Source: Planctomycetaceae bacterium
Lineage (GTDB): Bacteria > Planctomycetota > SZUA-567
Assembly: GCA_021201355.1 (NCBI GenBank)
Contig: JAJQFC010000017.1
Coordinates: 1-36,392, forward strand
DNA: 36,392 nucleotides
Direction of reading: 5' to 3'
The notes beneath the pieces are model-generated. The model was given only the letters and a program-made list of their open reading frames with translations, was not told the DNA's origin and made no database searches. Shown piece by piece: positions 7,181 to 20,605 of the stretch; position 1 is the stretch's first letter, and the number at the start of each line of letters is the position of its first letter. The position numbers and the translations under genes were made by a program.

Positions 7181-9196
7181 ATGAGTTTGATTACGAAGAT
7201 TTTTGTCGCTTTCGCCGTGGTGGTGGCGATAGCCGTTGCCTGCGGCATAGTCGGTTGGCAGGGGGTCGACCGTATCAATGATACGCAGGCGCGGGTCATT
7301 GAGTTCGAGGTCGTCGCGGCCGGCGATCTCCGGATGGCGGAAACGGTCATCCAGGGCATGAGCGTGGCCCAGCGGACGCTTCTCAATTCCAGCCTGAGCA
7401 TGGAAGAACGGAAGGAGCAGCTCACCGTCCTCCAGCAACAGAAGGACGCCCTCGCCGAAGTAAGCGCCGAACTGGCCGACCTTTTCCGCCGGGGCGGTTC
7501 GGTCGTCAACGGCTGGCAGACCCTGAATGCCGAGTGGAACCAGGTCCGGAACCAGCTTACGGCCTGGAATACCATTGTCGACGACGGCGTCGCCAAACTG
7601 AAGGCGTGGGAAGACACCACCATCCTGAACCCGGACGGCCTTCTCCGCGACCTCAACCAGTACCGGGGCGACCACTTCCAACTCGCCGCCCGCCTCGGCG
7701 AAATGATTGCTAAAGAGGAGCCGGACGGCAGCGAAGTCGGTTCGGCCGACAATCTGTGCGCGTTCGGCCGCTGGCGCACCCGGTTCGAGCAGGGGCAGGA
7801 AGTGTTCAGCCAGAACGAGAACATCCGCCGCGCCCTTGACATCATGACAAAACCGCACCGCGACTTCCACCAGTCGGCCCACGACGTTTACACCCTCATC
7901 GCCGACGGGTATGAAGAGAACGCGGAAACCATCACCACCCGCTATATCGAACACCTCGCCGCCGCCCGGGAGGTCATCGCCAGCTTCCAGATGATTATCG
8001 AGGAAGTCGATCGGGCCCGGCAGCTCTATACCGCCGCCGACTCCTTCATTATGGGCGAAACGCGGGAGAGCCGGGCCGCGACCATGGCCGCCCTCGACCA
8101 TTTCACCGAAGAGACGATCAAGAACATGGACGCGAACGTCCTCGCCGCCGCCGCCGGCCGGAACGGCGTCCGCACCATGCAGGGACTGGCGACGTTCGCG
8201 CTTGTTCTCGGTCTCGTCGTGTCGATTGTCCTTTACATCACCATCCGGCGTCAACTGACCGGTCCCCTGACCCGGGTCATCGCCGCCTTGGCTTCAGACG
8301 CCAACCAGGTCGCCGGCATGGCCGGGGACGTCGCCACCAGTTCGTCGTCCCTGTCCCAGGGGTCGGCCGACCAGAGCGCCTCCCTTGAAGAGACCTCGGC
8401 GGCGCTGGAGGAAATCACCTCGATGGCGCGGAAAAACCTGGACAACGCCCAGGCCGCCAACGTCAGTATGCAGGACAATTCGAAACAAATCGCCTCGTCC
8501 TCGGAAGCGGTGGGCCGGATGTCGACGGCGATGTCGGAAATCCGCGATTCCTCCGAGAAGATCGGGAATATCCTGAAAACCATCGAGGAAATCGCCTTCC
8601 AGACCAACCTCCTCGCCCTGAACGCGGCGGTCGAGGCCGCCCGCGCCGGCGAGGCCGGCAAGGGCTTTGCCGTGGTGGCGGACGAGGTCAGGAATCTGGC
8701 GCAGCGGTCGGCACAGGCGGTCAAGGACACGGCGGAACTCATCACCGGCACGGTGGACCGGGTCGGGAACGGCGTCCGCATCACGTCGGAAATCGAATCC
8801 AGCTTCCGGGAGATCGCTTCGACGACGGAACAGATAACCAGGATGGTTGAGGAAATCGACGTCGCCACCGGCGAACAAACCCAGGGTCTCGAGCAGATTA
8901 ATCAGTCGGTCTCCCAAATTGACCAGGTCAATCAGCAGAATGCCCGCCACGCCGAAATGAACGCCCAGGCCAGCGTCCAGTTGAACGACAGTTCGTCCAG
9001 CCTGATGGACCAGATCGACCAGCTTGGCGGCGTGCTCCGGATTATCGTTGGCCGGGGCGCGGTGAACCGTACCGCCATCGGCACGCAGAACGGTAATGGG
9101 AATGGCAACCGGCGCCTTGGCGACGGCAACGGTCCGGTGGAAGTGACGGCGCGGCCGGCGATGCGGGCCTTGCCGATGCCGGACGACCGTTTCTAA
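7181..9196 (+). CDS. methyl-accepting chemotaxis protein with CZB-like motif in the N-terminal periplasmic region
   Basis: TM1, long periplasmic region, TM2 ([20 protein letters not shown]), MCP signalling hairpin ([62 protein letters not shown]). SD aaggag. Confidence 0.95.
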
Positions 9197-16154: not shown

Positions 16155-16187
16155 CTCAAGTCTCCACCCCTCGCGACCGCTAATACC
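16155..16187 (+). promoter_or_regulatory. sigma-28 (FliA)-like promoter candidate
   Basis: TCAA-N16-ACCGCTAA (consensus TAAA-N15-GCCGATAA); shares the 14-mer GCGACCGCTAATAC with the site at 18385-18415. Confidence 0.5.
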
Positions 16188-16334
16188 TGTATACTGTGTG
16201 GGAGGCCATGAACCGCCTCTTCCACAGCGGACCGCGCGTGAGGAGGGCGGAAGGAGTCCGTCCGCCGGCGCGGCCCGGAGGATCACCCTGTATACTACCG
16301 GAAACGGTCGGGGTATACCAGATGCGAGGAGCGC

Positions 16335-16517
16335 ATGATGAGTGTTGGAGGCGTTGGCGGTGGAGCCGCCGATATGAGCGGGCTGATGCAGGTGCTGCAG
16401 ACGGGAATTCAGAAGCAGACCGACCTGTCGAAAAACATGATTTCCATCGGGGTGGAGAATTCCATTATCGGCAATAAAATGTCGATAGCCCAGGAAATCA
16501 TCGACGTTTACGCGTAA
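16335..16517 (+). CDS. 60-aa hypothetical small protein, possibly motility-associated
   Basis: MMSVGGVGGGAADMSGLMQVLQTGIQKQTDLSKNMISIGVENSIIGNKMSIAQEIIDVYA; SD gcgaggagc upstream; terminator downstream; sigma-28-like promoter upstream. Confidence 0.65.
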   Translation: MMSVGGVGGGAADMSGLMQVLQTGIQKQTDLSKNMISIGVENSIIGNKMSIAQEIIDVYA

Positions 16518-16591
16518 AATCGGCCCGAGGTATTTTTCGCCCGGCGGCGTGCGACTGCGTACGCGGCAGGGCACATTCGTTGTGTCTCACT

Positions 16592-16628
16592 GCCCGGCGT
16601 CCGCCCTTGTGGCTGGCGCCGGGCGTTT
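16592..16628 (+). terminator. terminator-like hairpin after the 60-aa gene
   Basis: GCCCGGCG (16592-16599) / CGCCGGGC (16617-16624) followed by GTTTTAATTA. Confidence 0.65.
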
Positions 16629-16757
16629 TAATTATGTATAGTGGGACGTACCTGTCTCCATGGGGGGAGACGGGCGTCCGGGGCCGGTTCCGCCTCACGG
16701 GTTGTCGGGTAACAGCCGGATAGGCGAACGGACGGACAAGGCGGGAGACGGGAATAC

Positions 16758-17783
16758 ATGTTTGCCGGAATGCGCTGGGACGGGTGGGAAGTGGTCGGTC
16801 TGATCGGCGAAGGCCTGTTCTTCGCCAGGATGGCGGCCCAATGGGTCATGTCCGAGAGGGCCCGGCGGCCGGTCATCCCTACCGCATACTGGTACATGTC
16901 CCTGGCCGGCGCGGTTATCCTGATTCTCTATGCCCTGCATCTGGGCAGTTTTGCCGTATTGTTACCGCAGGTGGTGGGGGTGGTCTTTTATGCGCGGGGA
17001 CTGCATTTGGACATTCTCTCACGGCGCCGCGACGCCCGGCGCCAGGAATTCGGTTTCGACAACGACACCTATCCGTGGCCTGCCGTTTCCATCATTGTTC
17101 CGGTTCATAACGAAGAAGCGACGCTTCGGGAAACCCTCGCCGGCCTGACCGCGCAGGTGTACGCCGGTCCGCAGCCGGAAATCATCGCCGCCTTGAACGG
17201 CTGCACCGACCATTCGCGTCGCGAAGCCGAGGCCGTTCCGGGCGTAACTATCGCTGAAAGCGACCGCTCCGGCATGTCGTTCGGGAAAAACCTCGGCGCC
17301 GGGGCCAGCCATGGCGATTTCCTCGTTTTTATCGATGCCGATACCCGCGTGCCGCCGGACGCGGTGCAGCGCCTCGTCGAGGCGGCGGCCGGGCTGGACC
17401 GGTTTATCGGCACCGTCGCCGGCGCGCCGGACCGGGGCGGGTTTGTCGTGAAAACCTGTTTCCGTATCGCCAATTGGGCGACCCGGCGGAAACAGGCCCA
17501 CGCGCCCGGCGGCGTCATGCTCATGGACCGGGAGACGCTTTCCCGGGTCGGCGGCTTTGACGAAACGCTGCCGCAGGGCACGTCCACCGACATGATCTGG
17601 CGCGGCATCGAATCCGGCGCCCGTTACGTGTATGTCGATTCGTTCCAGGCGGTAACGTCTATTCGCCGGTTCGAGAAAACCGGCATTATCCGCCAGATGC
17701 TCAGTTGGCGATCAAACCACCGCGCCTTCGCCGCCGGCCGTCGCGAAACCGTGTCCGGGAAGGCGTACGAGGACATTCGGTGA
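16758..17783 (+). CDS. fusion of LAB_N (lipid-A-disaccharide synthase N-terminal-like membrane domain) with GT2 glycosyltransferase
   Basis: N-term GLIGEGLFFARMAAQWVMSERARRPVIPTAYWYMSLAGAVILILYALHLGSFAVLLPQVVGVVFYARGLHL resembles LAB_N; C-term VSIIVPVHNEEATLRETLAGL...FLVFIDADTRVPPDAVQRLVEAA is GT2 (DAD motif). Confidence 0.85.
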   Translation: MFAGMRWDGWEVVGLIGEGLFFARMAAQWVMSERARRPVIPTAYWYMSLAGAVILILYALHLGSFAVLLPQVVGVVFYARGLHLDILSRRRDARRQEFGFDNDTYPWPAVSIIVPVHNEEATLRETLAGLTAQVYAGPQPEIIAALNGCTDHSRREAEAVPGVTIAESDRSGMSFGKNLGAGASHGDFLVFIDADTRVPPDAVQRLVEAAAGLDRFIGTVAGAPDRGGFVVKTCFRIANWATRRKQAHAPGGVMLMDRETLSRVGGFDETLPQGTSTDMIWRGIESGARYVYVDSFQAVTSIRRFEKTGIIRQMLSWRSNHRAFAAGRRETVSGKAYEDIR

Positions 17784-18145
17784 AAATTTCCTTTCTCCGG
17801 GGCGAATTCTCCATCTGCCAACTCCGGGATCTGAGCCGGCTCGACCTGTCCGCGAATATCCTCTTCCTTGCCAAGACGCCGGACGAACTGTCCCTCGTCT
17901 GCCCGACGGAATCGGTGCCGGACAATGTCCTGAAGGTCGATCGCGGCTGGGCCGCCTGCTATATCGAGGGCGAACTTGACTTTTCCCTCGTCGGCATCCT
18001 CGCCGAAATCAGCCGCGTCCTGGCCGAGAACCGGATAAGCCTGTTCGCCGCCTCTACCTACAATACGGATTACGTTCTCATCAAACAGGTCAAGGTCGAG
18101 GCGGCCAGGGAGGCATTCCGGCAGGCCGGGTACGACGTGGTCTAG
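17780..18145 (+). CDS. ACT domain-containing protein (tandem-ACT/CASTOR-like)
   Basis: GTG start overlaps the GT2 stop (GTGA). Ends ELDFSLVGILAEISRVLAENRISLFAASTYNTDYVLIKQVKVEAAREAFRQAGYDVV, typical ACT. Confidence 0.82.
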   Translation: MKISFLRGEFSICQLRDLSRLDLSANILFLAKTPDELSLVCPTESVPDNVLKVDRGWAACYIEGELDFSLVGILAEISRVLAENRISLFAASTYNTDYVLIKQVKVEAAREAFRQAGYDVV

Positions 18146-18384
18146 ACCGCCACATACCGCCGTGCGGGACCGGCCACCGGAGACTGCCCATGTGTATTGG
18201 ATCGCCCACCGTATCGACGGCGGGACGGGTCAAAAGCCCCGCCTGAAAAAATGGTCAACCCGTTCTTTTACAACCTTTACCGGATACGGTTTTTCTTGAA
18301 AAATCTTTCGCCCGGCTCAGGTTAATCCGCGTAAACCTAAACCACAAACCATTTTCCCGTTAACTACACCAAGTCTCGCTTTTT

Positions 18385-18415
18385 CTCAAGTTTTGTCCCG
18401 TGCGACCGCTAATAC
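18385..18415 (+). promoter_or_regulatory. sigma-28 (FliA)-like promoter candidate
   Basis: TCAAGTTT-N11-ACCGCTAA (TCAA-N15-ACCGCTAA) against consensus TAAAGTTT-N11-GCCGATAA. Confidence 0.55.
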
Positions 18416-18514
18416 TACCACTGGCCGTTCATCCAAAAAACGGACGGTGCATCGTGGGGCTGCGGCGGGCATCATTGGAGCCAGGGATGGCTTCCTTGAA
18501 GAAAGGGCGGGACT

Positions 18515-20548
18515 ATGATTCAAGGCATGGGAAGCGCAGGGATAAGCGGCGCACAATACCACTCCTCCACATCGCGGAACAGCGGGTCCGGCGCGGCCGC
18601 GGGGGCGGCCGGAAAATCGGATATCGTCTCCATATCCGAAATGGCCCGGCAACTGGCGGAGCAGGCCAAAGCGGTCGAACCCTCAAAGATGTATGCCGCT
18701 GGTGAATCGAAAGCCGCTATCACCAGCACCATCGCCGGAGCGGGCCTTAGTAAATACGCCAATCTCGGCCTCGATGATGGCCAGACCGACCTGACCGCCA
18801 TGAACTTCAGCCGGAAACGCCTCGGCGGCAAGGTCGACAGCATCCTGAAGGCGGCCGGCATAAAGCTCGGCAAGGACGAGCGCGTCGCCATGTCCGTCGG
18901 CGCCGACAACAAGATCAAGGTCTCCGGCATCAAAGACAAGAAAAAGGCCGAAGCGATTGAAAAGGCCCTGAACGAAGACAAGAGCCTTGGCCGCGATCTC
19001 CGGAACCACGTCGCCACCGGCCGCATCACCAAAAACGCCCAAAAGCAGGAAGAATACGTCGATTTCCTCAAAACCAACAATATGGAAATTCCGGAGGACA
19101 TTGACGAACTGTTCACCCATTCCGGCGTCCGCGCCTTCATCCTCGACGAATACCTCCAGGAGAATGCCGGCGTCGGCATCAGTGCTCTCGGCCTTGACTA
19201 TGACAGCGACGGGAACGAAACGCTCACCGGCGTCAACGAGACTCTGAAACAGCTGTTTTACGATGATCAGGCTCTTGAGAATACCCTGAAGACCATGATC
19301 CGGGAAGGGAAAACCGACACCAGCTTTTCCGTCAGTTTTGAATTCGCCAACGGCACCCTGTCCGACCCGACCACCCTCGATATGGCTAAGAACAAGGTCC
19401 AAAGTATCCGCGACAAGGTCATGGGACACTGGGACAAGGAAAAGCAGGAGATGGTCCCGGGCGCTATCGACATCCTCCGGGATACGGTCGACAAGCACGG
19501 CGGCGGCATCGACGATCCGGAACTCCAGGAGGCGCTGAGCCGGGGATTCGCCATCAAGGTCGACAAATCCGGGAAGTTCGAAATTGTCGGCGACCACCTC
19601 TCCGGGAATGCCAAACGGATTCTTGAAGGCATTGTCCAAAAAGCCCTGGACGAGTGGGCCGAGGATCCGGAACGAAAAGCTTTGGACGGCAACGGCGGCA
19701 AGCGGGTGGCCAATTTCGCCGACGTGGCGGAAACGTTTATCGAAGAGCACCGGTTCGAGCACGGCGACGTCGACGAGCAATCACACGAGGTGATCATCAA
19801 CTTCGCCGGCAGCGTCAATGACACCAAGGTCGTCTCGGACGCGGCGGACGACGCCCAGGATGAAAAGAACAAGGAACTCGCCGGGGAACTCGGCAATTCC
19901 CTCCGGCAAATGCTGAAAGAAAACGGCATCGACGCCGACAACATGTCGATGGAAATCGACGAGAACGGTAAAATCATCGTCACCGGCGACGCCGACACCA
20001 AGGATCTCCAGAAGACGCAGCAGCTCCTCGACGCTTTTGTCAAGGATGCCAAATCCGGCGGCAACGGCCAGGCCAACGGCGAGGATTCGGACGACGACAC
20101 CACCGACCCGGCGGACCTGAATCCGAACGCCGTCAACGACCGGCTGAAAATGCACCAACAAAGAAAAGAGGAAGAGTTTACGCCGGACGGCTGGGCCAAG
20201 CGCGACGTGGTGACGACGAGCGATGTGAAAAAACCGGTCGAGGAGACGGAAGAGGAAGAGTATATCCGGAATCTCGGCTACTCGAACGAGCAGCGCCTGG
20301 CCGACATTGCGAAAAACTTCGGCCAAAACCTCCCCGGGATCAATCCGGAGGACAACCTTTATAACGGTATCGTCTCCGGCGGCGTGTCAAATATCAAAAA
20401 GTCCCGCTTCGCCATGAACCAATCGGATGAAGCCGGCGGACCGCGGTTCGGCGCCGTCGCCACCAGCCCCGCCGCCCAACTCTATCGGGAACTCATGGGC
20501 GGCATGCAGTTCCATGACCCGAAGCGGATAGCCCGGTACGCGATGTAA
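18515..20548 (+). CDS. 677-aa uncharacterised protein with repeated acidic modules
   Basis: Single long ORF with SD-like aagaaaggg upstream and a terminator after it. N-term low-complexity Ser/Gly/Ala then SDIVSISEMARQLAEQAKA; repeated D-x-x-GK-x-x-V-x-G modules. Confidence 0.85.
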   Translation: MIQGMGSAGISGAQYHSSTSRNSGSGAAAGAAGKSDIVSISEMARQLAEQAKAVEPSKMYAAGESKAAITSTIAGAGLSKYANLGLDDGQTDLTAMNFSRKRLGGKVDSILKAAGIKLGKDERVAMSVGADNKIKVSGIKDKKKAEAIEKALNEDKSLGRDLRNHVATGRITKNAQKQEEYVDFLKTNNMEIPEDIDELFTHSGVRAFILDEYLQENAGVGISALGLDYDSDGNETLTGVNETLKQLFYDDQALENTLKTMIREGKTDTSFSVSFEFANGTLSDPTTLDMAKNKVQSIRDKVMGHWDKEKQEMVPGAIDILRDTVDKHGGGIDDPELQEALSRGFAIKVDKSGKFEIVGDHLSGNAKRILEGIVQKALDEWAEDPERKALDGNGGKRVANFADVAETFIEEHRFEHGDVDEQSHEVIINFAGSVNDTKVVSDAADDAQDEKNKELAGELGNSLRQMLKENGIDADNMSMEIDENGKIIVTGDADTKDLQKTQQLLDAFVKDAKSGGNGQANGEDSDDDTTDPADLNPNAVNDRLKMHQQRKEEEFTPDGWAKRDVVTTSDVKKPVEETEEEEYIRNLGYSNEQRLADIAKNFGQNLPGINPEDNLYNGIVSGGVSNIKKSRFAMNQSDEAGGPRFGAVATSPAAQLYRELMGGMQFHDPKRIARYAM

Positions 20549-20576: not shown

Positions 20577-20605
20577 GAAGCCCCGGGTCGCGCGCCCGGG
20601 GCTTC
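20577..20605. terminator. bidirectional hairpin terminator between convergent genes
   Basis: GAAGCCCCGGG / CCCGGGGCTTC perfect 11-bp stem. Confidence 0.75.

Follow-up and report, generated by a model that had tools for sequence, protein, structure and literature searches.

Sigma-28-like promoters upstream of two uncharacterised planctomycete genes and of late flagellar genes in the same lineage

Two uncharacterised genes on one contig of a Planctomycetaceae bacterium are preceded by the same short sequence. Do they share a regulator, and, if so, does this regulator belong to the flagellar system? We addressed the question in the 36,392-nucleotide stretch that makes up the contig (here called the window; JAJQFC010000017.1, assembly GCA_021201355.1, C131 in our numbering), in the metagenome-assembled genome (MAG) to which it belongs (G000; 3.85 Mb, 83% complete), and in genomes of related bacteria.

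A bipartite site upstream of both genes

The 14-mer GCGACCGCTAATAC occurs on the forward strand at 16173-16186 and at 18402-18415, and has no further match in the window even at two mismatches. At that tolerance, chance alone would give 0.31 matches, and two matches are reached in 4 of 100 shuffled windows; this test permits mismatches and takes no account of the -35 box or of the findings across the genome. Each copy is preceded by TCAA, which starts at 16156 for the gene encoding a 60-amino-acid (aa) protein and at 18386 for the gene encoding a 677-aa protein, and is followed by 16 and 15 nucleotides (nt), respectively, before ACCGCTAA. The full sites read TCAAGTCT-N12-ACCGCTAA (16156-16183) and TCAAGTTT-N11-ACCGCTAA (18386-18412), and agree with the consensus TMAAGTTT-N11-RCCGMTAA at 15 and 16 of 16 positions, the N12 spacer of the 60-aa gene being one nt above the usual length. 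Measured from the final A of the -10 box, the ATG is 151 nt away in the 60-aa gene and 102 nt away in the 677-aa gene. The 14-mers, TCAAG boxes and spacings reported in the initial annotation all lie where it had placed them, as do the two open reading frames. The features, all on the forward strand, are as follows.

16156-16163, +: candidate -35 element TCAAGTCT of the 60-aa gene, an exact match to the pattern used genome-wide
16176-16183, +: candidate -10 element ACCGCTAA of the 60-aa gene, spacer N12, invariant in a four-genome alignment
16320-16334, +: Shine-Dalgarno sequence AGGAG in the loop of a possible 5-bp hairpin (ATGCG-AGGAG-CGCAT), read from the sequence; fold weak, z about -1.4
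16335-16517, +: gene for a small, putatively YjfB-like protein of 60 aa, with homologs in 9 genomes, its own included
16591-16629, +: predicted intrinsic terminator after the 60-aa gene, stem GCCCGGCG/CGCCGGGC followed by TTTT
18386-18393, +: candidate -35 element TCAAGTTT of the 677-aa gene, part of the 16/16 match to the consensus
18405-18412, +: candidate -10 element ACCGCTAA of the 677-aa gene, spacer N11, kept in the related locus L012
18515-20548, +: gene for a 677-aa protein of an undescribed Planctomycetota family, with homologs and paralogs; DxVxISxxA at residues 36-44
20577-20605, +: predicted intrinsic terminator after the 677-aa gene, 12-pair stem, fold z -4.34

For the 60-aa gene, an ATG at 16338 is an equally possible start and aligns better with the relatives. 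Its terminator folds with -28.5 kcal/mol (z -4.35), the same stem is legible in L012, and beyond it lie genes for a LAB_N/glycosyltransferase protein and an ACT-domain protein. In the leader of the gene (16286-16334), a hairpin GTATAC..GTATAC may form, and L012 carries GTATAG..CTATAC, a paired change. The segment ATGCG-AGGAG-CGCAT follows this hairpin and is identical in L012; the leader as a whole folds with z about -1.4. A search of the region against Rfam returned no match.

Both promoters are present in the relative G006 (locus L012). Its copy of the 677-aa promoter retains the boxes but differs in parts of the spacer and over most of the leader. For the 60-aa promoter, the -35 element is conserved in G006/L012 and takes the form TCAAG-CTC in two further relatives, G007 and G008, where TCAAG, a C-rich spacer and GCGACCGCTAA are kept within diverged DNA. 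Upstream of the 677-aa promoter (18320-18380), a block TTAATCCGCGTAAACCTAAACCACAAACC..CCAAGTCTCGC is nearly unchanged in L012 and possibly represents a further regulatory site.

The site upstream of flagellar genes

The composite pattern TCAAG-N..-GACCGCTAA has exactly three exact matches in the MAG, and its reversed control has none. Two of the three are the window copies; the third (C314:10725-10751) lies about 220 nt upstream of the ATG of a flagellin gene (Flagellin_N, E = 8.9e-25). When two mismatches are allowed, 16 forward matches stand against 20 in the reversed control, and, because there is no forward excess, only near-perfect sites are informative; matches at this tolerance were therefore counted only if they adjoin a flagellar gene. 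One such copy, at C313:3426, precedes a second flagellin gene by 79 nt. A consensus site with one mismatch is found on C78, 124 nt upstream of fliS (PF02561, E = 1.8e-37). The flagellin gene on C41 has no such site (best weighted score 22 vs. 33 for the C314 copy), and neither do several flagellin genes of the relatives. The absence of a site at C41 indicates that the regulon does not take in all flagellins. The methyl-accepting chemotaxis protein (MCP) gene at 7181-9193 of the window was rejected as a regulon member, its best upstream site matching the consensus at 10 of 16 positions. This gene carries a CZB zinc-binding domain.

The sigma factor itself is encoded in the MAG (TIGR02479 on C285, 239.6 bits vs. 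a cut-off of 189.6), and FliA_WhiG matches exceed the cut-off in 16 of 16 genomes of the family (E = 5.7e-71 in the window's own genome). FlgM was not found in the MAG, which is 83% complete. The sigma-28 reading, which the initial annotation had offered tentatively, gains support from these findings: the motif is present before flagellins and fliS, late flagellar genes before which its absence had been named in advance as speaking against the reading, and FliA is encoded.

Across the 16 genomes, TMAAGTTT-N11-RCCGMTAA has 55 sites at up to one mismatch, compared to 17 for the reversed motif (both are sums of per-genome counts over fragmented assemblies). The gene flgM is a textbook target of sigma-28, and, by comparison of coordinates, 9 of the 55 sites lie directly upstream of FlgM matches (G003:C78, G004:C70, G006:C437, G007:C81, G008:C36, G009:C83, G010:C254, G011:C130 and G012:C54), one of the nine genes being confirmed as flgM (PF04316, E = 1.3e-7). 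Further sites precede flagellins in four relatives (G005:C154, G006:C334, G012:C26 and G013:C29), fliS in G015, and a gene for a Flagellin_IN-domain protein in G003 and, at lower score, in G007. Two loci (L091, 9042-10583; L140, 1-1395) encode proteins of about 500 aa with Flagellin_IN repeats (MSTVNNNTPNYSNVMNQQ.. type) and have sigma-28-like sites upstream; they possibly represent a divergent hook-associated or filament-cap protein. In genome G004, FliA, FlgM and the 60-aa gene behind its promoter are all present and a flagellin match is absent, perhaps solely because the MAG is incomplete.

Two gene families behind the site

The profile of the 60-aa family recovers nine members (the window's own included) among 392 Planctomycetota genomes, all within the window's family or order. 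In all nine, a sigma-28-like site agreeing with the consensus at 12 to 15 of 16 positions lies within 180 nt upstream of the ATG, with an N11 spacer in seven and N12 in the two closest copies. Measured against a background of 12,000 windows, these sites give a combined P value of 1.9e-12 over seven genomes, after removal of near-duplicates, and of 4.2e-8 over the five genomes outside the window's genus.

A Pfam search with the window's 60-aa protein gave no match. For one homolog, YjfB_motility (PF14070) is the sole Pfam match (E = 0.069, below the cut-off), and the best homolog reaches 13.6 bits vs. a cut-off of 27 over profile positions 12-57. Two of the nine sub-threshold PF14070 matches in the 16 genomes fall on 60-aa homologs (G002:C46 and G014:C51). 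A phylogenomic module reported elsewhere groups YjfB with sigma-28 and FapA (PMC10802407). The protein resembles YjfB_motility, the family of Bacillus subtilis YjfB, in its length of about 60 aa and in the adjoining sigma-28 site; it differs in that its homologs score far under the Pfam cut-off and the window protein has no match. We therefore call it YjfB-like rather than a proven member, and suggest that it may be a distant YjfB-like motility protein.

The 677-aa protein is 66% identical to a protein of a close relative, a Planctomycetota bacterium. Full-length relatives occur in G006 and G007, and the copy in G008 is truncated by the contig. Divergent paralogs of about 507-599 aa were found in the window's own genome, G006, G013 and G015; those of the own genome lie on C364 (two in tandem) and on C245. 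The initial annotation had described the two window genes as unrelated orphans. The two proteins are indeed mutually dissimilar; the term orphan fits neither, one being putatively YjfB-like and the other belonging to a paralogous family.

Good sigma-28 sites precede the 677-family relatives in G006 and G007, the paralog G006:C345, the G013 tandem and the C245 paralog, the last with an exact TAAAGTTT-N11-GCCGATAA; weaker sites precede G015:C77 and the first C364 copy. Good sites of their own are absent for the second C364 copy, G006:C99 and G013:C59a. The head of the G013 tandem (C59b) is a doubtful member of the family, aligned at 17% identity. The C245 gene (L090, 1-2360) is broken by in-frame stops behind its perfect consensus site, and represents either a recent pseudogene or an assembly error. 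In G015, the paralog and the flagellar assembly gene fapA are transcribed towards each other.

Profile searches of the 677-aa family against Pfam, NCBIfam and PDB returned nothing credible. A YscD/BON-like match (E = 0.038) was rejected because it is sub-threshold and present in one member only. An AlphaFold2 model of the 677-aa protein, built from a two-row alignment, has a pLDDT of 40.7, too poor for a fold search. Three of the seven invariant columns in the alignment of 10 members (D36, S41 and A44) belong to the N-terminal motif DxVxISxxA. Among 588 distinct open reading frames of at least 90 aa, a sample enriched for flagellar loci and holding duplicate fragments of the same gene, only the 677 family and FlgM have this motif within their first 110 residues. 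The G007 member matches positions 1-21 of the FlgM profile (E = 0.044); PF04316 has no match in the window protein, and a complete sigma-28-binding C-terminal FlgM domain was not found in the family. The family thus resembles FlgM (PF04316) in its N-terminal DxVxISxxA(R), the start of the FlgM domain, and differs from it in lacking the rest of the profile and in its size (500-680 aa vs. about 100 aa). We regard this resemblance, seen at the level of sequence, as a lead rather than a demonstration.

A probable late flagellar regulon

The assignment of the two window sites to the sigma-28 promoter class is well supported. We propose, with high confidence, that FliA RNA polymerase transcribes the 60-aa and 677-aa genes along with flagellin, fliS and flgM after FlgM export, and that their products are YjfB-like and probably flagellum-associated, respectively. 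Because both genes lie behind the switch that turns on flagellin, FliS and FlgM in this lineage, they very probably belong to the late flagellar programme. The larger protein, one of a set of paralogs specific to the lineage, is probably associated with the flagellum.

Could the 14-mer instead be an operator for another regulator that the two genes share, or an unrelated repeat, and resemble a FliA site only by accident? It does reach past the core -10 element, by GCG on the left and TAC on the right, and conservation before the 677-aa gene also includes blocks further upstream, for example TTAATCCGCGTAAACCTAAACCACAAACC. We nevertheless consider this very unlikely: both boxes are conserved at fixed spacing, flagellin, fliS and flgM have this bipartite site in front of them in the family, and a search upstream of the two genes found no site of the sigma-70 type. 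Slightly less probable still is that one of two FliA-like sigma factors reads both promoters in the service of a non-flagellar programme. Two FliA_WhiG proteins do exceed the cut-off in the window's own genome (C285:14453 and C109:3280; L061 and L088) and in several relatives, and in some relatives the FlgM match adjoins the lower-scoring FliA_WhiG protein (G015:C86 and G004:C184). Since the motif precedes flagellin, fliS and flgM, whichever sigma factor reads it serves flagellar genes. That two intergenic regions share a FliA-like string by chance is scarcely credible, despite the 4 of 100 shuffles, given the third exact copy before flagellin, the site in all nine 60-aa family members (combined P = 4e-8 outside close copies), the 55 vs. 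17 sites, and the sites before flgM in the 16 genomes.

Under regulation by FliA, completion of the hook would be followed by export of FlgM and release of FliA. FliA-RNA polymerase would then recognise TCAAG(TTT) and (A/G)CCG(C/A)TAA at N11, or at N12 for the 60-aa gene. Both genes would be switched on together with flagellin, fliS and flgM, each as a separate short unit stopping at its own terminator. The late timing is drawn from what is known of FliA and FlgM in model bacteria.

The window sites resemble the class III promoters that sigma-28/FliA (SigD) reads in Escherichia coli (flgKL, flgMN and fliC; PMC4183435), the bipartite form in the window's lineage being TMAAGTTT-N11-RCCGMTAA. The E. 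coli flgKL site, TCAAGTCCGGCGGGTCGCTGCCGATAAT, likewise starts with TCAAG and has an N11 spacer, which places the TCAAG and N11 of the window within the range of proven FliA promoters, and flgMN is a sigma-28 target there (PMC4183435). The association with flagellin, fliS and flgM is also found in the window's lineage. In contrast to the E. coli promoters, the window -10 element is ACCGCTAA, with A at position 1 and C at position 5, and one of the two spacers is N12. The part of the literature covered contained no account of sigma-28 promoters in Planctomycetota. The promoter class is known, and its assignment to the 60-aa and 677-aa genes is new.

These observations yield a sigma-28 promoter consensus that can be used for an uncultured lineage of Planctomycetota, and very probably place two orphan gene families in its late flagellar regulon. 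The 677 family, which has several paralogs per genome and a FlgM-like N-terminal motif, is a concrete candidate for a flagellar component or regulator not known so far. More speculatively, and with a low probability in our estimate, the 677-aa protein may be the founding member of a family of large Planctomycetota proteins under FliA control, which carry the beginning of FlgM and act as feedback regulators or as secreted flagellar components. If so, the N-terminal motif would allow binding of sigma-28 or use of the FlgM export route, and the family would have a regulatory loop of its own.
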